From positions 1 to 64,000 of the forward strand of contig NZ_JAMYJR010000014.1 in NCBI RefSeq assembly GCF_024137025.1: a DNA stretch of 64,000 nucleotides. The letters are read 5' to 3'. Of this stretch, positions 45,415 through 54,712 are shown in pieces. The notes beneath the pieces are model-generated. The model worked only from the letters and a program-made list of their open reading frames with translations. It was not told the origin of the DNA and searched no databases. The DNA comes from Paractinoplanes aksuensis. Its GTDB lineage: Bacteria > Actinomycetota > Actinomycetes > Mycobacteriales > Micromonosporaceae. The translations under genes were made by a program, and so were the position numbers. How positions within the stretch are numbered: position 1 is the stretch's first letter; every line of letters starts with the position of its first letter.

Positions 45415-46941
45415 ATGAGCTACGCGCGCGTCCTGAGCGTCGGCCTGGTCGGCGTGACCGGGCACGTGGTCGAGGTCGAGGCCGACCTGTCCCCCGGCCT
45501 GCCCGCCGTCGTGCTGACCGGCCTGCCCGACACGGCCCTGCACGAGGCCCGCGACCGGGTGCGGGCGGCCGTGGTCAACTCCGGCCAGGTCTGGCCCAAC
45601 CGCCGGATCACGGTGAACCTGCTGCCGGCCGCGCTGCCCAAACACGGCAGCGCATTTGACCTGGCGATGGCTGTGGCCATGCTCGCCAGCGCCGGTGAGC
45701 TGCCGTCGGCTGCGCTCGACGGCGTGGTGCTGCTGGGCGAGCTCGGGCTCGACGGCGCTGTACGACCGGTGCGCGGGGTGCTGCCGATGGTGGCCGCGGC
45801 GGCCGGGGCCGGGCTGCGCCGGGTGATCGTGCCGCTGGCCAACGCCCGCGAGGCCACGGTCGTGCCGGGCATGACGGTCGAGGCGGTCGACAGCCTGCGC
45901 CGGCTGGTCGACTACGTTCGCGACGGTGTCGCCCTGCTCGACCCGCCGCCGTCCGACGACGCGCCCCCGCCGCCCGGCCCCGACCTGGCCGATGTGGCCG
46001 GGCAAGAGATGGGCCGTTACGGCTTGGAGGTCGCCGCCGCGGGCGGGCACCACCTGGCGCTGTTCGGGGCGCCCGGGGCAGGCAAGACCATGCTGGCCGA
46101 ACGCCTGCCCACGATCCTGCCCGAACTCGACGACGCCGCGGCGCTCGAGGTGACCGCCCTGCAGTCGATCGCCGGGGTGCTGCCGCCGAACGGCCGGTTG
46201 GTCCGCCGCCCGCCGTTCCAGGCGCCCCACCACACGGCTTCGTCCGCGGCTCTCGTCGGCGGGGGCAGCGGGCTGGCCCGGCCCGGGGCGCTCTCGCTCG
46301 CTCACCGGGGCGTGCTGTTCCTCGACGAGGCGGCCGAGATTCCGTCGGCGACGCTGCAGGCGCTGCGACAACCGCTGGAGACGGGCCGGGTGGTGCTGGC
46401 CCGCTCCCGGGGCACCACCGAGTTCCCGGCCCGCGTGCAACTTGTGCTGGCAGCCAATCCTTGTCCATGTGCGAGCCCGGCCGGCGACCAGCACTGCACG
46501 TGCGCGCCGGCGGTGCGGCGGCGCTACCTGGCCAAGTTGTCCGGGCCGCTGCTCGACCGCATCGACATCCGGCTCACCCTCGCGCCGCTGACCGCCGCTC
46601 AGCTGACCACGTCCACCGAGCCCGCCACCTCGTCGGCCGAGATCGCCGCGCGGGTGGCCCAGGCCCGGGCGGCCGCGGCGAGACGCTGGTCGGACGGCGG
46701 GTGGGGGCTCAACGCCGAGGTGCCCGGGCCGGTGCTGCGCCGGACGCCGTGGCGGCTGCCCCCCGCCGACACCGCCGACCTGCGCGAGTCCCTCGACAAG
46801 GGACTGCTCTCGGCCCGCGGCTTCGACAGGGTGTTGCGGCTGGCCTGGACGATCGCCGACCTCGACGGACGCGACCGGCCGGGCCGGGCCGAGGTCGGCG
46901 AGGCCATCCAGCTGCGAATGGGAGAGAGCCATGTCCGCTGA
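45415..46941 (+). CDS. YifB/ComM-family AAA+ ATPase (Mg-chelatase-like)
   Basis: 508 residues starting MSYARVLSVGLVGVTGHVVEVEADLS, 11 bp after yraN. An N-terminal Lon-substrate/ribosomal-S5-like domain precedes the AAA+ core: Walker A GAPGAGKTML, Walker B GVLFLDEAAEI, sensor AANPCPC and the four-Cys insert CPCASPAGDQHCTCAP. ComM is a hexameric branch-migration helicase in natural transformation. Overlaps dprA by 11 bp. Confidence 0.94.
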   Translation: MSYARVLSVGLVGVTGHVVEVEADLSPGLPAVVLTGLPDTALHEARDRVRAAVVNSGQVWPNRRITVNLLPAALPKHGSAFDLAMAVAMLASAGELPSAALDGVVLLGELGLDGAVRPVRGVLPMVAAAAGAGLRRVIVPLANAREATVVPGMTVEAVDSLRRLVDYVRDGVALLDPPPSDDAPPPPGPDLADVAGQEMGRYGLEVAAAGGHHLALFGAPGAGKTMLAERLPTILPELDDAAALEVTALQSIAGVLPPNGRLVRRPPFQAPHHTASSAALVGGGSGLARPGALSLAHRGVLFLDEAAEIPSATLQALRQPLETGRVVLARSRGTTEFPARVQLVLAANPCPCASPAGDQHCTCAPAVRRRYLAKLSGPLLDRIDIRLTLAPLTAAQLTTSTEPATSSAEIAARVAQARAAAARRWSDGGWGLNAEVPGPVLRRTPWRLPPADTADLRESLDKGLLSARGFDRVLRLAWTIADLDGRDRPGRAEVGEAIQLRMGESHVR

Positions 46942-48103
46942 CGACGACGACCGTGCGGCCCGGGTCGCGCTCACCTGGCTGGCCGAGCCGGGCAACCGCG
47001 CGGTGTGGGCCCTGGTGCAAGAGGGCGGCGCGGCGGCGACGTTGCACCGGCTGCTGCGCGGCGACGTCGAGGACGGTCCGCTGCGGGCATCCGCGCTGGC
47101 CAAGGCGGCCAAGATCGACCCCCAGCGGCTGGCCGACCTGACCCTGCGGCGGGCCGAGCGGCTGGGGGCGCGGATCGTCGTGCCGTCCGACGCGGAGTGG
47201 CCGCAACGGGTGGCGGCGCTGGCCACCCTGCACCTCGACGACGCTCCGACGCGGATCAATACCGATGTGCGGCCGCCGTTGTGCTTCTGGGTGCGCGGGT
47301 CGTGGTCGCTGGGCGAGGCGCTGGCCCGGTCGGTCGGGGTGGTGGGGGCCCGGGCGGCGTCCAGCTACGGCGTTCATGTGACGAAGGAGATCGCGTACGG
47401 GCTGGCCTCGCACGACTGGACGGTCGTGTCGGGCGGTGCGTTCGGGATCGACGCGGCGGCGCACCGGGCGGCGGTCGCGGCCGGCGGGCGGACGGTGGCC
47501 GTGCTGGCCTGCGGGGTCGACCGGCCCTATCCGGTGGGCAATTCCGCGATGTTCGAGCAGATCGCCGAGTCCGGGCTGCTCATCAGCGAGTGGCCACCGG
47601 GCACGGCGCCGCTGCGCCACCGCTTCCTGATCCGGAACCGGGTCATCGCGGCCGCCACGGCAGGCACTGTGCTGGTCGAGGCGGCGGCGCGCAGCGGGGC
47701 GATCCAGACCATGGGCCGGGTGCTGGCGCTGGGGCGGCCCGCGATGGTGGTGCCGGGGCCGGTCACGTCGGCCATGTCGGTCGGGTGCCACACGCTGCTG
47801 CGCGAGCGGCCAGACGCGACGCTGGTCACCGACGTGTCCCAGGTGCTCGAAGCCGTGGGCCGCATCGGCGAGTACCAGAGCGACCCGGCCCGCGGACCCG
47901 AGCATCGGCGCGACGGGCTCGACGAGGAGTCGGCCCTGGTGCTCGAGGCCGTGCCCCGCCGCGGGACGGCCACACCGGAAGAACTGGCGGTCAAAGCCGG
48001 GCTCGGGCTGCGAACTGTGCTGCGGCGACTGTCCCTGCTGGAGCTGAGCGGGCTGATCGACCGCCGGGACACCGGGATCGCCCTCAGCCGGAAAGGACGG
48101 TGA
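46931..48103 (+). CDS. dprA: DNA-processing protein DprA
   Basis: 390 residues. Rossmann-like core with VGVVGARAASSYG, VVSGGAFGIDAAAH, LACGVDRPYP, SEWPPGTAPLRHRFLIRNRVIAA and VEAAARSGAIQTM. A C-terminal winged-helix (ALVLEAVPRRGTATPEELAVKAGLGLRTV) is present. Loads RecA on incoming single-stranded DNA. Its GGGAG ribosome site lies inside the end of yifB. Last core gene before the accessory stretch. Confidence 0.95.
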   Translation: MSADDDDRAARVALTWLAEPGNRAVWALVQEGGAAATLHRLLRGDVEDGPLRASALAKAAKIDPQRLADLTLRRAERLGARIVVPSDAEWPQRVAALATLHLDDAPTRINTDVRPPLCFWVRGSWSLGEALARSVGVVGARAASSYGVHVTKEIAYGLASHDWTVVSGGAFGIDAAAHRAAVAAGGRTVAVLACGVDRPYPVGNSAMFEQIAESGLLISEWPPGTAPLRHRFLIRNRVIAAATAGTVLVEAAARSGAIQTMGRVLALGRPAMVVPGPVTSAMSVGCHTLLRERPDATLVTDVSQVLEAVGRIGEYQSDPARGPEHRRDGLDEESALVLEAVPRRGTATPEELAVKAGLGLRTVLRRLSLLELSGLIDRRDTGIALSRKGR

Positions 48104-48150
48104 CCGTTCATGGGCAGCACAAAGGCGGGCGCCTCGCGGTCGCCCGTGGC

Positions 48151-48172
48151 GCCGGGCGCTGACGCGCCCGGC
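48151..48172. terminator. Hairpin between dprA and the convergent HTH gene
   Basis: GCCGGGCGC (48151-48159), loop TGAC, GCGCCCGGC (48164-48172): perfect 9-bp stem in the 74-bp gap between convergent genes. Confidence 0.75.
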
Positions 48173-48177
48173 CGGGG

Positions 48178-48387
48178 TCAATCCTCGGAGTCGTCCAGAT
48201 CGCGGCGGTGCACCTTCATCCACGCCTCGACGTCGTCGGTCGCCCACACCTTGCCCTGTGCGAGATCGGCAACCGGCTTGGGGAAGTCGGCGCGGCTGGT
48301 GATCTGGTACGCACGCTGCCGGCTCACCCCACCCAGACGGATGCGGATCTCGTGTGCCCCCATGAGCCGGATCGGTTTCGCTGCCAC
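48178..48387 (-). CDS. Small helix-turn-helix DNA-binding protein
   Basis: 69 residues from GTG 48387. The core RLMGAHEIRIRLGGVSRQRAYQITSRADFPKPVADLAQGKVWATDDVEAWMKVHRR is the HTH_17/AlpA-excisionase fold, with the W-x-x-x-D-V-E-A-W end. TACGGT (48395-48400, minus) ends exactly 7 nt before the GTG, which favours it over an upstream TTG at 48420. Proteins of this kind control excision in integrative elements or act as small regulators. It marks the left edge of the accessory stretch. Confidence 0.85.
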   Translation of the reverse strand: MAAKPIRLMGAHEIRIRLGGVSRQRAYQITSRADFPKPVADLAQGKVWATDDVEAWMKVHRRDLDDSED

Positions 48388-48435
48388 ATGATCGACCGTA
48401 GGCGTGAGACTATTAGTCAATCATCAAGTTGATAG

Positions 48436-48464
48436 GAGACAGCTAGTCGCATGTCACCTATACT
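48436..48464 (+). promoter_or_regulatory. Promoter of the 48471 gene
   Basis: GAGACA (48436-48441), 17-bp spacer, TATACT (48459-48464), then 6 nt to ATG 48471. The -10 is one of the best in the window and predicts a leaderless message. Confidence 0.7.
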
Positions 48465-48470
48465 GGCTCC

Positions 48471-48950
48471 ATGACAAGGCGTCGCCAGACTACCCCGCCC
48501 GTCCCCCTCGGACCGGTACATCGACGCGTGTGGCGGTCGTTCTGGCGCCGCTGCAGTTGCGGCCTCGCCGCCCCCTGCATCGACGCGCTCGTCCCCACTC
48601 CGCCGCTCCCCTTTCCTCCTCGGGGTGCGGCACCCGGCACAGACCTTTCCCCGCCCTCACATGCCCCCATCGAGGAAAGGAGGTACCGCTACGACAGACC
48701 CCCCATGAGACCGGGCAAAACAGGGAGCGATCCCACCTTCCTGTCACGCTGCTCGCCCGGCGGCTCCCACTCTCCAGCGCGGAGACCCCAGAGGCCGCCG
48801 GGCAGCAGTCCCCGGTCCACCGCTCACCGGCCCGACATCACCATCGGGGGCGGCCGCCGCAGCCCGGCCAGGCACAGCGGCGGCCGAGCCACCCCGGCCC
48901 CGCACCCCGAGCACGACGACATATCGGTGCGGGCCGGGCCGTCGCCCTGA
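48471..48950 (+). CDS. Cys-motif accessory protein, unknown function
   Basis: The frame runs 159 codons from ATG 48471. The first 70 residues look genuine: MTRRRQTTPPVPLGP, then RRVWRSFWRRCSCGLAAPCIDAL, a W-x2-C-x-C-G-x3-P-C motif that could bind a metal. After about residue 75 the sequence turns into Arg/Pro/His-rich low complexity and a strong AAAGGAGG (about 48673-48680) appears with no ATG/GTG/TTG in range, only ACG ACA GAC..., so the real gene may end earlier or be damaged. The motif resembles that in the protein encoded at 50051. Function unknown. Confidence 0.5.
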   Translation: MTRRRQTTPPVPLGPVHRRVWRSFWRRCSCGLAAPCIDALVPTPPLPFPPRGAAPGTDLSPPSHAPIEERRYRYDRPPMRPGKTGSDPTFLSRCSPGGSHSPARRPQRPPGSSPRSTAHRPDITIGGGRRSPARHSGGRATPAPHPEHDDISVRAGPSP

Positions 48951-49290
48951 GCAAGTCCCGCACGAGAAGAGCCGAACATGCATCCATCTTGTGCAGGCCC
49001 CTCCGCGGCGCCCGGTCCGGCAAACCGGCCGCCGATCACGAAGGCTTCCCCTGCAACCTCGACCGCGAACCCCGACCGGACGGCGTCTCGCACCTCAACG
49101 ACCCGGACCCCCGGACGCCCAGCCATGGCCCACCGCCACATCAACCTGCACCACTGGTGACCCGACCCCCCAAGTCGCATCGCCGAAGCCGAACAGGCCC
49201 GCGCCAAAGCCCTCCGGTCGGCATCGCCACCAGCGTCGTCAATCGCCACCGCCACCAGCTCAAAGATGCCGGCGGCGCGTGCCAGAGGCA
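48951..49290 (+). pseudogene. Frameshifted gene remnant
   Basis: High third-position GC and plausible protein sequence jump between frames. GKPAADHEGFPCNLDREP and RPDGVSHLNDPDPRTPS read in one frame; then MAHRHINLHHW, a TGA, and RIAEAEQARAKALRS in another; then VGIATSVVNRHRHQLKDAG back in the first. Joined, the last two look like a helical, HTH-like segment. No intact start-to-stop frame carries all pieces. Best read as a decayed accessory gene; family not recognised. Confidence 0.4.
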
Positions 49291-50050
49291 GCACGCACCA
49301 TCGGCATCCCGCATGGCGATCGGCACAGGTACGCGACGACACCGGGAGACGGTGGCAGGCCTCGTTGGCTGTGAGTCCCCGCATCCGGATCGCTGGCCAT
49401 ACTGACTGCCGCCGGCGATCCGGATGCGTGACCGAGCAGCGCACACGGCCCAGCGCGCATAGGAGCCGGCATACCGGAGTCACCGGTGGACCCGCTCGCA
49501 GCGACGCACGCTGTTGGGCATCGAGCCGCGATAGGCAGCATCGCCATCGTCGGAACTGCGGTGAGTGGCAGGACCTGACTCGGAGGCCAAGCGGTTCGGC
49601 GGACGGCGTCGCCTGGACGAGCAACCTGCGTCCTCGCGCCGGCCATCGCGTCGAGGCCGATCGGGGCGGCGGTGGCTGCTCAGCTTCGGCGAGCGATCGG
49701 CTCTGGGCTTCACACTCCGCGAAAAGTCGGCAGGAGGCCACCGCCGGGCGATCGGCTCGCTACGCACCGAGGGCCGGTGACTGCGGGCCGAAAACTGACC
49801 GATGGGCTCGTGACCGGCAGACCGTCGAAGCTGAATCCCTGATCGGGTTCACCCAGCGTCGCTTTGGGCTCTCGGGTGCAGGTGGCTCTCGCACCCGAAC
49901 TTCCCGGTTCGGGTCGCCGGCACGTCGAGGTTTCACCGTGGCGAATCGCCTGTGCCGTCCTCGTCGGCGACGGGATGGCTACGCCGATCTGCCAACGGTG
50001 GCAGACAGCACCACCCGCCCGTCCCGACGGGCACACCTGGGGGAACCAAA
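49291..50050. other. Stretch without a supportable gene
   Basis: No frame shows conserved motifs or a consistent actinobacterial codon pattern. It contains a 14-bp inverted repeat (49380-49428). Around 49870-49920 translation gives a GAGGSRTRTSRFGS-like string of the kind produced by reading through tRNA-derived sequence, but no cloverleaf can be drawn. Probably decayed mobile DNA. Confidence 0.4.
49380..49428. repeat. 14-bp perfect inverted repeat
   Basis: CGCATCCGGATCGC (49380-49393) and GCGATCCGGATGCG (49415-49428), spacer 21 bp. Each arm holds the self-complementary ATCCGGAT. Could be an operator, a recombination site or part of a decayed element. Confidence 0.85.
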
Positions 50051-51310
50051 ATGACCTATACCGAGCTTCCACCCGACCCACCCGACGGATCGCCGCATAC
50101 CGGCCCAGCACGACAGCGTCCGACCGGGGACGCTGACAGCCGAGCAGCACCCAAGACAACCACGCCACCAAGTCGGATCCGCTCCGTCGACACCTCGTCG
50201 ATGACGCTCCTCACCGCGCCCCCTCGGGCAGATTCGGTCCGGGACAAGTCACCCGACCCGCCGAAGCCAGCCGGCGAGGCACGGCCACTCGTCCCGAGGC
50301 AGCGCCTCGCACCAACACAGCAGCCGAGTCCGGCGCAGCCGTCCAGACCAGCACAGCAGCTCCGCGCGGCAGGACAACCCAACCCGGCACAACCACCCGG
50401 CACAACACAACAGCCGCGTTCAGCCCGGGCACCCATTCCGGCGCAGCAGTTGGATCCGGTACAGCCACTCGCTCCGGCCGAGCCACCCGCTCCGATACAG
50501 CGACTGGGTCCGGCGAAGCCGCCTATCCCTACGCAACCACCCGTTGCAGCAGAACAGCCGCGTCCCATGTGGCCGATCTCCCCGGCCCAGCCACCCGGCC
50601 CAGCGCAGCAGCTACGGCCACCTGTCCCGGCGCAGCCAGGCGCTCCCGTACAACGACTGCGCCCGCCGCAGCCAGCCGTTTCGACACGACGGCTCGGTCC
50701 GGCGCAGCCACGCGTCTCGACGCAACCGTCCAGTCCAGCACAACAACCGCGTCCCTTACGGCCACTCATCCCGGCACAGCCAGCCGGCTCGACACCGCAG
50801 CTACGCCCGGCGCGGCCACCCATCCCGGCACAACAGCTGCGTCCAGCGCGAGCGCCTATTCCGGCGCAGCGAGCTGCTTCGGTGCGGGGGTTTGGTTCAG
50901 CTCAGCCGATTGTTTCGGTGCAGCCGCTTGAGGTGACCGCGTCGGCGGGGCGGCGGCGGGCCGTGGTGACGGCTGATGGGGTTGAGCTGGTTTCGGCGGC
51001 CCGAGGGCTGGGGCCGGCGGCTGTGATGGATCACCTGAATGATCGGCCGGGGTGGAACTGCACTGCCTGTGGGGAATCCTGGCCTTGCGAAACGGCGCGG
51101 GAGCGGCTGCTCGAGGAGTTCCGGGCTTTTCCGACGACGCTGACGATCTATCTGTCCGCTCAGATGTACGACGCGCTGGGGGATCTGGTGGCTGAGGGGC
51201 AGATCGTGCCGGGCAATCTCTTTGAGCGGTTTGTCGCCTGGGCTCGCAAGGCTGCTGTCGCCCCGCGGGGTGATGACGAGGGCGGGCCGGCGCCGGAGAT
51301 CGGTAGCTGA
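50051..51310 (+). CDS. Proline-rich protein with C-terminal Cys-motif domain
   Basis: 419 residues from ATG 50051 (GGGGGAA upstream). Residues about 80-310 are a Pro/Ala/Gln-rich tract with irregular PAQP repeats. The C-terminal 100 residues form the conserved part: RPGWNCTACGESWPCETARERLLEEF, then TLTIYLSAQMYDAL and NLFERFVAWARKA. W-x-C-x2-C-G-x3-P-C plus the LYLSA helix occurs in many Micromonosporaceae proteins, some labelled flavin reductase without basis. The TGA overlaps the next ATG (TGATG). It may be a surface-exposed or scaffold protein; function unknown. Confidence 0.65.
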   Translation: MTYTELPPDPPDGSPHTGPARQRPTGDADSRAAPKTTTPPSRIRSVDTSSMTLLTAPPRADSVRDKSPDPPKPAGEARPLVPRQRLAPTQQPSPAQPSRPAQQLRAAGQPNPAQPPGTTQQPRSARAPIPAQQLDPVQPLAPAEPPAPIQRLGPAKPPIPTQPPVAAEQPRPMWPISPAQPPGPAQQLRPPVPAQPGAPVQRLRPPQPAVSTRRLGPAQPRVSTQPSSPAQQPRPLRPLIPAQPAGSTPQLRPARPPIPAQQLRPARAPIPAQRAASVRGFGSAQPIVSVQPLEVTASAGRRRAVVTADGVELVSAARGLGPAAVMDHLNDRPGWNCTACGESWPCETARERLLEEFRAFPTTLTIYLSAQMYDALGDLVAEGQIVPGNLFERFVAWARKAAVAPRGDDEGGPAPEIGS

Positions 51311-51573
51311 TGCGTCCGCCCTGTCTGGTTTGCCGCCGGCCGCTCGACGGTTGGCGGCAGCTGGGCACTGTGGACGTTGAAGCGGACGAACGGGCGGCGG
51401 CTCGGCCGTGCTCGGGGTGCTTTTGGGGCACCTCGTGGCGCGGCTTTTACCGCCGCCCGTCCAGCCGCCCGATCAAGTCTCGGCCTTCTCAGTGCGGCAG
51501 GGCTATCATACCTACATGGCTCCGTACGTACAATCCGATGGAACATCGTGGTCACGTAGACTGGCTGGCATGA
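51310..51573 (+). CDS. Small Cys-rich protein, possibly truncated
   Basis: 87 codons from an ATG overlapping the previous stop by one base. The first 45 residues (MRPPCLVCRRPLDGWRQLG ... ARPCSGCFWGTSW) have CxxC pairs that could bind zinc. The last third has poor codon usage and contains two -10-like elements for the following gntR gene, so the true protein may end sooner or be decayed. The TGA overlaps the gntR ATG at 51570. Confidence 0.4.
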   Translation: MRPPCLVCRRPLDGWRQLGTVDVEADERAAARPCSGCFWGTSWRGFYRRPSSRPIKSRPSQCGRAIIPTWLRTYNPMEHRGHVDWLA

Positions 51574-51974
51574 TCGATCCTTCTGCGGACCGCGCGGTCT
51601 TCCGCCAGCTGGCTGATCTGCTGCGCAACCAGATCGAGTCCGGCTCGCTGGGGCCCGGTGAGCCGCTGCCCAGCGAGCTGCGCCTCGCGCAGGAATACGG
51701 GATCAGCCGCACCACCGTCCGCCAGGCGATCGGCCAGCTGCGCACCGAGGGGCTGGTGACCGTCGACCGTCCTCGCGGCACCTTCGTCCGCGTGCCCGAG
51801 CCGATCGAGCTCATCGCCCTGGCCCGCGGCGAACGCGCCAGCGCCCGCATGCCCACCGACGCCGAGCGCCGCAAATACCGCCTCGGCGAGGGCGTGCCCG
51901 TCCTGGTCGTCACCGCCACCGACGGCACCGAAACCGTCCACCCCGCCGACCGCGTCCAACTCACCCGCCCCTAG
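51570..51974 (+). CDS. GntR-family transcriptional regulator
   Basis: 134 residues from ATG 51570: MIDPSADRAVFRQLADLLRNQIESGSLGPGEPLPSELRLAQEYGISRTTVRQAIGQLRTEGLV is a canonical GntR winged helix. Only a short C-terminal part follows, so there is no full UTRA ligand domain. TAGACT ends 7 nt before this ATG. An in-frame ATG at 51516 is preceded by TATCAT at 6 nt, so a longer form starting MAPYVQSDG is also possible. Resembles KorSA-type regulators of actinomycete integrative elements in size and type; that link is inference. Confidence 0.88.
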   Translation: MIDPSADRAVFRQLADLLRNQIESGSLGPGEPLPSELRLAQEYGISRTTVRQAIGQLRTEGLVTVDRPRGTFVRVPEPIELIALARGERASARMPTDAERRKYRLGEGVPVLVVTATDGTETVHPADRVQLTRP

Positions 51975-52026
51975 GGCCGGCCCGGCCGCCCCAAAGGCCC
52001 CGGCCAGCCGCCACCCGACAATCGAC

Positions 52027-52116
52027 CAAGCCGCGCGGGCAGCGCAAGCCGCGCGGGCAGCGCAAGCCGCGCGGGCAGCGCAAGCCGCGCGGGCAGCGCA
52101 AGCCGCGCGGGCAGCA
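52027..52116. repeat. 18-bp tandem repeat, five units
   Basis: CAAGCCGCGCGGGCAGCG repeated at 52027, 52045, 52063, 52081 and 52099; the last unit ends in A. A degenerate relative appears near 52268-52290. Confidence 0.95.
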
Positions 52117-52514
52117 CACAACCAACGCGAGGCACGACCCGCCCTCCCCCGACAACTACATCGTCGCAGGCGGCAAAGGCAGCAAATCGCAGCGCCAGGC
52201 CGGCCGGGAGTAACGCGGGGCACAACTCGCACCCCTCTGACAACCACGTCGTCGCAGGCAGCGGAAGGCGCGCGGGCAGCGCAAATCGCAGCGCTCGGAT
52301 GGCCACAACCGACGTGAGGCGCGACCCGCACTTCCCGGGACAACCAGGTCGTCGCGGACAGCGGGACCTGAGGCATTCCGATCCCGGGCGGGCGACCGGC
52401 CGGCTCGAGCGTTGGTGGGCGTTGGCACGGTCGACGGGGCAGGAGCGGCTGAACAAGGTGCCGCGGGCTGCCCACCGTCGAGAAAGAGCGCACCCGGTCG
52501 CTGGTGAGCTGTGG

Positions 52515-52614
52515 GCGCAGCCGGTTGCTGGTGGGCTAGGCGCAGCCGGTTGCTGGTGGGCTGGGCGCAGCCGGTTGCTGGTGGGCTGGGCGCAGCCGGT
52601 TGCTGGGGAGGGTG
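52515..52614. repeat. 25-bp tandem repeat, four units
   Basis: Units start at 52515, 52540, 52565 and 52590, each opening with GCGCAGCCGGTTGCTGG and differing by one or two bases; a weaker partial unit precedes them. 25 bp is not a multiple of three, arguing against a coding repeat. Confidence 0.93.
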
Positions 52615-52694
52615 CGGGCACAGCCGGGAGCGGCTGAGGGGAGAAGCTGGCCGGAGCGCCGCATCGTGGTCGGTTGATCGGGTTTCTGGGCCTG

Positions 52695-53159
52695 TTATGT
52701 GCGGGTGCGGCGGGTGTGGCCGCGGCCTGTGTGCCAGGACTCGATGACCAGGTGGTCGGCGGGGACGCCCACATAGGTCAGCACCACCTCGTGGATGTCG
52801 ATGCGGAACAGGCCCGCGTCGTCGCCGTGGGGCCAGTCGGGTGGGTGGGGCAGGGCGACCGCGACGCCCGCGAGTTTGGCGTCGCCGGGGCCGGACTCGG
52901 GGTTGTCGGTGGGTGGTTCCAGCGTGGGGGCGTGCATCGCGAGGCGGGGGTCGCGGCGCAGGTCGTGCAGTTTCACCGAGTCGGCCATCATGCCGAAGGT
53001 GAGTTCGCCGTCTTGGAAAGCCGCCTCGCTCGCGCTGATGCGGGGTGCGCCGTCGCGGCGCAGGGTGGCGATCGTCTTGTTGGTGCCCGCGTCGAAGAGA
53101 GCCTTCACCCGCTGGGCGAAGGCCGGTGCGTCCTGCTCGATCTCATGCCAGCTAGCCAT
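52695..53159 (-). CDS. Pyridoxamine-phosphate-oxidase-fold (PPOX) protein
   Basis: 154 residues starting MASWHEIEQDAPAFAQRVKALFDAGTNKTIATLRRDGAPRIS. The split-barrel flavin/F420 fold is indicated by TIATLRRDGAPRISASEAAF and LHDLRRDPRLAMHA. TAGGGT (53167-53172, minus) ends exactly 7 nt before the ATG. First core-type gene right of the accessory stretch. Probably binds FMN, F420 or haem; substrate unknown. Confidence 0.88.
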   Translation of the reverse strand: MASWHEIEQDAPAFAQRVKALFDAGTNKTIATLRRDGAPRISASEAAFQDGELTFGMMADSVKLHDLRRDPRLAMHAPTLEPPTDNPESGPGDAKLAGVAVALPHPPDWPHGDDAGLFRIDIHEVVLTYVGVPADHLVIESWHTGRGHTRRTRT

Positions 53160-53193: not shown

Positions 53194-53706
53194 TCAGAAG
53201 AGCGTGTAGCGCGACTGGGCCAGCGTGAAGCCGTGTCCCGTTTCGTCGTCCTTGCAGGTCAGGCCCGCGCTGTCGCTGTCACACCGCACTGTGCCGGAAC
53301 GGAGCGCCTGGCCGTACTCGAGGGTGGTCTCCGACGTACCCACCAGGGTGTCCCCCGCGCAGGTGAACGTGGCCTCGCCGCCGGACACGACCAGGCCGTT
53401 GCCCCAATCGAGTTCGCAGTCGGCGGGCTTGGCCGGTGGCTTCCAGGTCTTGCGGACGATGTCGCAGCGCACCTCGGACTCGGTCAGTGCGCACGCGATG
53501 TTCTGGGAGGGGGTGCGGAACATGGCTTCGTCGACGACGGCGGGCGCGGTGCGGGCCGAAGTGGGGCCGCCAAATCCGACATTTGCCGACGGTGTTGAGG
53601 TCGGGCCGGCACCCGAGCCGCCCTCGGTCGAGGATTCGAACAGGGAGCAGCCGGAGAGCGCGCCCAGCAGGGCCACTGCGACGAGGCCGCGGATCATCGG
53701 TGCCAT
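53194..53706 (-). CDS. Putative secreted lipoprotein
   Basis: 170 residues. Signal peptide MAPMIRGLVAVALLGALSGC with lipobox LSGC at about 17-20; then a Ser/Thr/Gly-rich spacer and a folded part with five Cys (NIACALTE, VRCDIV, DCELDW, FTCAGD, VRCDSD...LTCKDD), likely disulphides. TAGACT lies 9 nt upstream of the ATG. Function unknown; similar DUF6636-like proteins occur in Actinobacteria. Divergent from xerC. Confidence 0.82.
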   Translation of the reverse strand: MAPMIRGLVAVALLGALSGCSLFESSTEGGSGAGPTSTPSANVGFGGPTSARTAPAVVDEAMFRTPSQNIACALTESEVRCDIVRKTWKPPAKPADCELDWGNGLVVSGGEATFTCAGDTLVGTSETTLEYGQALRSGTVRCDSDSAGLTCKDDETGHGFTLAQSRYTLF

Positions 53707-53752: not shown

Positions 53753-53781
53753 TTGACGATCACGCCCGGAACGAAGACTGT
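53753..53781 (+). promoter_or_regulatory. Leaderless promoter of xerC
   Basis: TTGACG (53753-53758), 17-bp spacer, GACTGT (53776-53781), 7 nt, ATG at 53789. The best -35/-10 spacing in the window and it fixes the start codon. Confidence 0.7.
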
Positions 53782-53788
53782 CGACACG

Positions 53789-54712
53789 ATGGGGACGCGG
53801 GATCTGCACGAAAGGCTGCCGCACGCGCTGCGCGAGGCGGTGGACGACTTCGGCCGGCACCTGAGCCGGGTCGACAATCGTTCCGAGCAGACCGTGCGGG
53901 CCTACGTCAGCGATGTCGTCTCGCTGCTCGATCATGCCGCGGGGGCCGGGGTCACCACTCCGGACGAGGTCGACCTCGCGCTGCTGCGGGCCTGGTTGGC
54001 CGCGCGCATGCGGCAGGGGGCGGCCCGCGCCACCCAGGCCCGCCGGGCCGCGGCCGCCCGGGCCTTCACGGCGTGGGCGTTCCGCGACGGTCGCATCCCG
54101 TCCGATCCGGGCGCGCACCTGGCCAGCGCCAAGGCCCACCGCACGCTGCCGACCGTGTTGCGGGCCGACCAGGCTACGGCCCTGGTCGAGGCGACCGCCG
54201 CCGACGAGGTCGAGGGCCTTCGCGACCGGGCCGTGCTGGAACTGCTCTATGCCACCGGCGTACGGGTCAGTGAGCTCTGCGGCCTCGACCGGGCCGACCT
54301 GGACGAGGGGCGCCGGGTCGTCCGCGTCTTCGGCAAGGGGGCCAAGGAGCGCGCCGTTCCCTACGGCCTGCCCGCCCAGCGCGCGCTCGACGACTGGCTG
54401 CGCCGGGGCCGCCCGCGGCTGGCCACTACGACCAGTGGCGACGCGCTCTTCCTGGGCGTGAAGGGGGGCCGGGTGCAGCAGACGGTCGTGCGCCGCATCG
54501 TCGACGGGGCCGCGCGGGCCGCCGGCCTGCCGCACACCAAGCCGCACGACCTGCGCCACTCGGCCGCCACCCACCTGCTCGACGGCGGCGCCGACCTGCG
54601 GGCCGTGCAGGAACTGCTCGGGCACTCGTCGTTGTCGAGCACCCAGATCTACACCCACGTCTCCACCGAGCGCCTGCGGGCGGCCTTCAAACAAGCGCAC
54701 CCCCGAGCCTGA
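53789..54712 (+). CDS. xerC: Tyrosine recombinase XerC
   Basis: 307 residues from ATG 53789. N-terminal SAM-like domain (QTVRAYVSDVVSLLDH), then the catalytic domain with Arg in LYATGVRVSEL, Lys hairpin GKGAKERAVP, His-x-x-Arg in PHDLRHSAATHLL, and His...Tyr in LGHSSLSSTQIYTHV. Resolves chromosome dimers at dif with its partner XerD. Position between dprA and the M23/rpsB neighbourhood is usual for Actinobacteria, so it is a housekeeping enzyme and not an element integrase. Confidence 0.93.
   Translation: MGTRDLHERLPHALREAVDDFGRHLSRVDNRSEQTVRAYVSDVVSLLDHAAGAGVTTPDEVDLALLRAWLAARMRQGAARATQARRAAAARAFTAWAFRDGRIPSDPGAHLASAKAHRTLPTVLRADQATALVEATAADEVEGLRDRAVLELLYATGVRVSELCGLDRADLDEGRRVVRVFGKGAKERAVPYGLPAQRALDDWLRRGRPRLATTTSGDALFLGVKGGRVQQTVVRRIVDGAARAAGLPHTKPHDLRHSAATHLLDGGADLRAVQELLGHSSLSSTQIYTHVSTERLRAAFKQAHPRA

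Follow-up and report, generated by a model that had tools for sequence, protein, structure and literature searches.

Is the stretch of DNA that separates dprA from the neighborhood of xerC in Paractinoplanes aksuensis the leftover of a mobile element, or a gene-control locus that belongs where it stands? It occupies positions 48104 to 52694 of the window, by which we mean the whole 64,000 nucleotides analysed here (contig NZ_JAMYJR010000014.1, positions 1 to 64,000), and a sequence-only reading had proposed either the residue of an integrative element or a Micromonosporaceae-specific module, correctly placing its boundaries at the dprA stop codon (48103) and the end of a PPOX-type gene (52695). 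Open reading frames (ORFs), family scans and comparison with relatives support four genes in between: hth (48178-48387, minus strand), which encodes an AlpA/excisionase-like winged helix-turn-helix (wHTH) regulator of 69 amino acids; cysN (48471-48950) and cysC (50051-51310, start codon likely rather than certain), which encode cysteine (Cys)-motif proteins; and gntR (51570-51974), the latter three on the plus strand. We conclude that the stretch is probably not mobile-element debris but a conserved gene-control locus, and we put at about 0.66 the probability that it is a resident transcription-control locus in which the HTH protein and an operator array govern hth and cysN, kept by purifying selection.

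The evidence that carries this answer is, to begin with, conservation. An XerC search was run over 67 genomes of the same genus (one GTDB genus that unites Actinoplanes with Paractinoplanes, Amorphoplanes, Winogradskya, Couchioplanes, Pseudosporangium, Mangrovihabitans and others), and the DNA upstream of xerC was taken from all 66 relatives, 57 of which have dprA and xerC on one contig. In these 57 complete loci hth lies between the two flanking genes without exception and always on the minus strand, as in the window, and of its companions, which always lie on the plus strand, cysC is present in 54, cysN in 51 (as detected by regular expression) and gntR in 43; one of the six loci missed by the cysN expression, L025, does match cysN by tblastn. 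The PPOX gene stands in the same gap in 28 of the 57 and the DUF6636 gene in 26. From the dprA match to the xerC match the loci span anything between 791 and 6783 bp, so that plasticity is confined to the spacers and does not extend to the genes. The remaining nine loci are cut by contig ends inside the gap (L014, L015, L028, L031, L032, L037, L062, L069 and L079), perhaps as assembly breaks caused by tandem or low-complexity repeats.

The regulator of this locus outdoes DprA in conservation, its identity being the higher of the two in all 57 loci compared. Relative to the window, the divergence at fourfold-degenerate sites is 0.423 for hth and 0.455 for dprA, and at codon positions 1/2 it is 0.045/0.038 for hth and 0.205/0.151 for dprA; gntR resembles hth in this respect (0.078/0.042, with 0.395 at fourfold sites). 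That the hth product is the more conserved protein although fourfold sites diverge alike argues for purifying selection, not decay. The locus is an old, genus-fixed resident module that is not decaying.

Outside the genus the picture changes. Of 20 dprA loci taken from other genera, 18 have xerC next to dprA, with 46-4593 bp between the matches, and in the other two no xerC was found in the roughly 11 kb after dprA; the gap measures about 1 kb or less in 13 of the 20, and tblastn found hth near dprA in none. A weak GntR-like match on the minus strand lies in the gap of one such locus (L092), and another (L089, genome G094) carries a 71% identical GntR with a cysN-like ORF on the opposite strand and no HTH. 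Among 250 genomes of the family, the 61 genus members each yield a best HTH match of 83-99% identity (two of them partial), the best identity in another genus among the matches listed is 64%, and none of the other-genus HTH matches compared with dprA coordinates lies beside dprA. The proposed Micromonosporaceae-specific module therefore stands as a lineage-specific one, confined to a single GTDB genus, and falls as a family-wide one; likewise, the same genes recur between dprA and xerC within the genus only, not in most Micromonosporaceae. The search for empty sites, also suggested at the outset, found every one of the 57 complete genus loci occupied and short HTH-less gaps in other genera only, and among these loci a precise empty site with flanking repeats was not shown. 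An ancient insertion into the dprA-xerC gap is the simplest origin: the ancestor of the genus would have gained the locus, or put it together, a single time, and purifying selection would have kept it since.

The second line of evidence lies in the 83 bp between hth and cysN, which are transcribed divergently across an array of units 15 bp apart, some palindromic, that is conserved in the 58 genomes compared here (57 relatives and the window). Conserved blocks alternate with variable spacers. Reading from hth, whose likely start is the GTG at 48387, a putative -10 element (TACGGT on the minus strand, 48395-48400; columns 0.98-1.00 conserved) is followed by putative operator 1, GACTATTAGTC (48408-48418), operator 2, ATCAAGTTGAT (48423-48433), and operator 3, GACAGCTAGTC (48438-48448), each 15 bp from the one before. 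A degenerate fourth repeat (48453-48463) keeps the register with weaker conservation, is not palindromic (0.30) and overlaps the putative -10 element TATACT (48459-48464) of cysN, whose message is probably leaderless. Counted from the first base of operator 1, palindromy peaks at centers +5, +20 and +35 (0.92, 0.69 and 0.54) and is 0.45 or less elsewhere, with a single exception at -11 (0.60), close to the putative -10 element of hth. When the base profile is compared with itself at lags 5-26, the similarity is greatest at lag 15 (0.171), followed by lag 18 (0.054). None of 10,000 column permutations, which in 58 related genomes test the spacing and not independent events, reaches the value at lag 15; the correlation of information content at lag 15 is 0.33 (permutation p = 0.013).

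The same spacing recurs upstream of related regulators elsewhere. When the motif [GC]T[AT]G[TGA][CT] was scanned upstream of HTH genes in eight distinct loci of other genera, 10 pairs stood 15 bp apart (in L132, L133, L134, L135 and L213), a number matched by none of 2000 shuffles, against which it has to be set that the motif, if not the spacing, owes part of its derivation to the scanned sequences themselves. There were three pairs at 13 bp, one each at 12 and 16 bp and none at any remaining lag between 8 and 23; L135 and L212 share an identical HTH upstream sequence. On the divergent side of these other-genus HTH genes, a small-Cys ORF comes first in L135 and second in L134, and in L136 the HTH gene faces a cysC-family protein, there without an array.

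Whether the array marks a wider regulon is a separate matter. The string GACTANTAGTC occurs at two places in the P. aksuensis genome, operator 1 being one, and its frequency in the four genomes searched is below that of the reversed-pattern control. Its four further places (L222-L225: the second in this genome and three in two relatives) were judged by eye, and three of them, L222, L224 and L225, carry more units spaced by 15 bp (sites at about 1531, 1557 and 1488, respectively), L223 having none; L224 and L225 share sequence with each other, and the other places do not. Beside these sites lie ORFs that we take to be ribbon-helix-helix-like (L222) and Rpn/transposase-like (L224 and L225). A genus-wide search with variable spacers returned 28 distinct places, four of them the HTH locus by position. 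The remaining 24 divide evenly: the 4-bp spacer, which gives a 15-bp period, accounts for 12, and the eight other spacers together for the same number (none at 1). Total matches are fewer than in the reversed-pattern control, and seven of the 12 4-bp-spacer places have the core GTCAAGNGAC in common, so that they are not independent. That other promoters carry this class of operator is suggestive only.

The protein that would read the array appears AlpA-like, as first proposed. Its match to Pfam Phage_AlpA (E=0.024, 15 bits) falls below the cut-off of 21, a profile search returns the AlpA-family GIsul2 excisionase (PDB 8c3t, E=1.3e-4) as its best sequence match, and in PHROGs it resembles phage and transposon excisionases (phrog_66, E=6.7e-5). 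The predicted model (predicted local distance difference test, pLDDT, 88.1) has a wHTH fold, for which the top VIA-align row is again 8c3t (Z 6.1, root-mean-square deviation 2.5, 57 residues aligned), tied with rows for BldC and MerR. By sequence or predicted fold, the hth product thus appears to resemble the AlpA/GIsul2 excisionase, BldC, RdfS and MerR domains.

Its presumed local partners constitute two protein families that the libraries searched do not describe. The head of CysN, H-R-R-x-W-x4-W-R-R-C-x-C-G-x3-P-C, is compact and basic and its tail variable, and the protein has no match in Pfam, NCBIfam, PHROGs or PADLOC. When sought by regular expression, it turned up in 108 of 222 records (2.5 Mb of overlapping and related loci, so that the count is not a frequency), all but four of them the Actinoplanes locus and those four the GntR loci L137, L138, L143 and L146. 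In CysC, 15 residues are invariant over 59 sequences: H7, P12, W14, C16, C19, W23, P24, C25, E35, L43, A54, D57, R72, F73 and W76. Against Pfam and NCBIfam these 59 members reach E 0.018 at best, and CysC has no PADLOC match of weight and no PDB sequence match; the residues suggest a zinc site. The model of its conserved C-terminal domain (51014-51307; pLDDT 83.8) places three helices after the Cys cluster and resembles no PDB entry convincingly (Foldseek E 4.0 and VIA-align Z 3.1 at best), which is not proof of a new fold. The family occurs in 67/67 genus genomes at 1-18 matches each, and its strict motif in 58 of the 66 genus loci, none of the 20 other-genus dprA loci, one of 20 HTH-paralog loci and six of 10 GntR loci (L137-L146). 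Away from dprA, cysN-like and cysC genes are close neighbors in L152 and L154.

Two corrections to the gene inventory follow. The proline-rich protein once listed separately is the N-terminus of CysC itself, read in frame in this lineage, where imperfect 18-bp repeats at 50311-50513 encode a Pro/Gln/Ala-rich extension; from the matching start the product has 108 amino acids in the relative L016 and 419 in the window. Of the proposed Cys-motif proteins, CysN and CysC are borne out by conservation in relatives, and a third ORF (51310-51573) is probably spurious: in L014, which has the most similar XerC, only residues 40-87 match, and the matching part coincides with a conserved hairpin and the gntR promoter.

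The GntR regulator, for its part, is present as predicted, with 134 amino acids, a PF00392 domain (74.3 bits against a gathering score of 27, E=5.9e-21) and a short C-terminal part; KorSA, to which it had been likened in size, is probably longer. Ahead of the gene, a promoter block (51500-51569, plus strand, with a putative -10 element TAGACT at 51557-51562) keeps its sequence throughout the genus and partly beyond it, as judged from gntR upstream regions. Between cysC and this block, a stem-loop (51463-51500, plus strand) with a strongly conserved loop sequence occurs in 33 of the 66 relative loci as well as in the window; it may act as a terminator, an RNA element or a DNA site. Covariation support for it is modest: in an alignment of 22 of those 33 loci and the window, two-sided changes fall in three of 13 pairs (as many in 41 of 500 shuffles), the covariation score is reached by six of 500 shuffles, further pair types are at least as many in all 500, and RNAalifold keeps eight pairs at -5.48 kcal/mol. 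GntR itself recurs outside the genus at 18 places with E of about 1e-39 or better. Eleven of these were read (L089 from G094 and L137-L146), which span six genera, with five in one, and are not all independent, the other seven all belonging to genus g4. In 10 of the 11, all but L141, the opposite strand carries a small-Cys ORF no more than 1 kb upstream, and five g4 loci have both cysN- and cysC-type ORFs there.

Several observations weigh against a dedicated control locus. The model of the regulator draws weak E-values from Foldseek (best 0.084) and a VIA-align Z of at most 6.1. Pairs at 15 bp are absent from three of the eight other-genus HTH loci (L131, L136 and L214), including the one with a cysC-family neighbor, and 14 HTH paralogs within the genus yield a single 15-bp step altogether. 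HTH-like genes and the cysC family are both multi-copy in the genus, and by their coordinates the paralogs are mostly not neighbors; the HTH-Cys pairing is therefore not obligate. Nor is the gene set invariable, as gntR is missing from 14 of the 57 complete loci, cysC from three and cysN, by regular expression, from six, and an apparent frameshift splits hth in two genomes (G007 and G043; loci L027 and L077). The loose Cys scan of the 11 GntR loci likewise returned four off-pattern ORFs.

With these reservations, we propose the following course of events. The AlpA/BldC-like HTH protein would bind the array of 15-bp units between hth and cysN, presumably cooperatively, and thereby control both promoters, by repression or activation, tuning the divergent transcription of the two genes; control of both is suggested because the array overlaps the putative cysN -10 element and comes within a few bases of the hth one. 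The local outputs of the locus would be CysN and probably also CysC, small proteins with a metal-site-like Cys/His cluster that may act on some other protein or nucleic acid. GntR would control its own conserved promoter and, in other genera, perhaps also the cysN- and cysC-type genes that lie opposite. Operator binding, control of expression and the metal site are all predictions from sequence, models and analogy.

How do other explanations fare? The stretch could be what remains of an integrative conjugative element (ICE), with HTH as its excisionase, GntR as a KorSA-like repressor and the rest decayed, a reading encouraged by the resemblance to phrog_66 and to the GIsul2 excisionase and by the short dprA-xerC gaps of other genera. 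Actinobacterial ICEs do carry GntR/KorSA-type regulators and excisionases (PMC3218068). As a recent element it is nonetheless largely refuted, and overall we consider an ICE residue very improbable, as was the integrative element first suspected: no integrase besides XerC was recognised among the proteins scanned, the window holds no tRNA, and no boundary repeat pair of the att kind appears among the matches listed (20 of 36 direct families and 25 of 75 inverted pairs), in addition to which hth is fixed in place and strand in 57/57 loci under strong selection on its protein sequence. HTH and CysC are without match in the phage collection and CysC also in plasmids, the HTH protein having matches in four plasmid records, all below 60% identity (CysN and GntR were not searched there). 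Nor was a decayed gene recognised. The supposed frameshifted remnant, a candidate GntR gene at 49741-49826 (plus strand), was rejected, its resemblance to gntR being limited to two pieces of 42 and 29 nt at about 86%. Less far-fetched, if still doubtful, is a domesticated origin, in which the control region of an old element was captured between dprA and xerC and now works as a host regulator; it concerns origin only and is compatible with a resident control locus. The excisionase-class fold and the restriction of the insertion to one genus fit it, and the GntR with a cysN-like ORF in the HTH-less gap of G094 suggests stepwise build-up, although similar partners recur at other chromosomal places and no donor element was found.

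Two further readings assign the HTH protein a different job. Were it the antitoxin and autoregulator of a toxin-antitoxin-like pair, with CysN or CysC as toxin, one would understand the small divergent proteins, the autoregulatory look of the operator and the varying number of cysC paralogs. Classical toxin-antitoxin pairs are, however, usually co-transcribed, unlike the divergent hth and cysN, three loci keep HTH without cysC, and CysN has no match to PADLOC, Pfam or NCBIfam models and CysC none of weight; we regard this as improbable. Most improbable of all is that HTH serves as a directionality factor for XerC with the array as a recombination arm site: the excisionase fold and a tyrosine recombinase about 5 kb away recommend the idea, but the array sits between divergent genes, the related HTH genes compared in other genera are not beside dprA, and XerC matches housekeeping XerC/D models. 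The resident control locus remains our preferred reading.

The flanks and repeats complete the description. To the left, dprA (46931-48103, plus strand) matches Pfam DNA_processg_A (E=1.5e-61) and NCBIfam TIGR00732. To the right lie a PPOX-class flavin/F420 protein gene (52695-53159, minus strand; TIGR03618, E=3e-10, below the cut-off), a DUF6636 protein gene (53194-53706, minus strand; PF20341, E=3e-12) and xerC (53753-54712, plus strand), whose product matches TIGR02224 at E=1.8e-92 and 309.9 bits (cut-off 335.15) and PRK00283 at 292.4 bits, above the cut-off of 279. The XerC match is broken near residues 150-225 in about 25 of the 67 genus genomes, among the matches listed (L054-L078, including G062, G037 and G053), as if tens to hundreds of bases of low-complexity sequence had been inserted there in frame. 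Within the stretch, the repeats noticed by the sequence-only reading are all there: two tandem tracts, of 18 bp x 4.9 (52027-52115) and 25 bp x 4.7 (52488-52606), and an imperfect inverted repeat with 40-nt arms at 73% (49358-49450), of which no second copy was reported in the same genome among the 40 of 336 candidates scored. All five Rfam matches (E up to 5) fall below the family gathering scores and are taken as chance, including the best, a microRNA model at this inverted repeat (E=0.0059).

To our knowledge, the developmental regulators of Actinoplanes are poorly known, and this locus offers a readable operator and two unnamed protein families, while correcting a likely misreading of the stretch as a proline-rich protein, a remnant and an element. 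In the open PMC literature we found no paper that joins Actinoplanes, dprA and xerC, none on an AlpA-family HTH in Actinoplanes or on Actinoplanes xerC together with GntR, and none on AlpA direct-repeat operators in Micromonospora.

Among known systems, the GntR protein shares the N-terminal winged helix of YvoA and DasR (by PDB matches) and of KorSA (named in PMC3218068), and differs from them in its length, which seems too short for a full UTRA effector domain, and in the adjacent small-Cys genes. The HTH protein is closest in sequence and top fold row to the AlpA-type GIsul2 excisionase, with RdfS (PDB 8dgl; PMC11963761) also among the fold rows, and departs from both in that no mobile element, second integrase or att site was found at the locus. 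It is likened to BldC by predicted fold (6ama, Z 5.8; 6amk, Z 5.5), as a small one-domain wHTH protein with iterated sites; BldC binds 9-bp direct repeats head-to-tail (PMC5859096) and, like RdfS (PMC11963761), oligomerises along DNA. The array here differs in its period of 15 bp, with units 1 and 2 palindromic, and gives no signal at lag 9, the BldC-type period. The nearest worked-out analog found is WhiJ9-iosA of Streptomyces venezuelae, where WhiJ9 binds three direct repeats beside iosA, which has a leaderless message (PMC10294661). The two would be alike in how they work, a claim that does not extend to membership: in both, a gene with a leaderless message (here the probably leaderless cysN) lies beside a DNA-binding regulator with intergenic repeats, and the regulator has paralogs in multi-copy clusters, whereas WhiJ is an XRE-type and not an AlpA/BldC-like HTH protein, and the units here are 15 bp apart and partly palindromic, with a neighbor that bears a Cys cluster. 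Taken as a whole, and tentatively, with the odds somewhat against so broad a picture, the locus may belong to a so far undescribed Micromonosporaceae control system in which the orphan CysN and CysC families stand beside dedicated small regulators, either an AlpA/BldC-like HTH protein with an iterated 15-bp operator or a short GntR, scattered through genomes in several copies like the whiJ/abaA/bldB clusters of Streptomyces. The copy beside dprA would then be one that became fixed throughout the Actinoplanes genus, where it would probably serve the life cycle of these sporangium formers.

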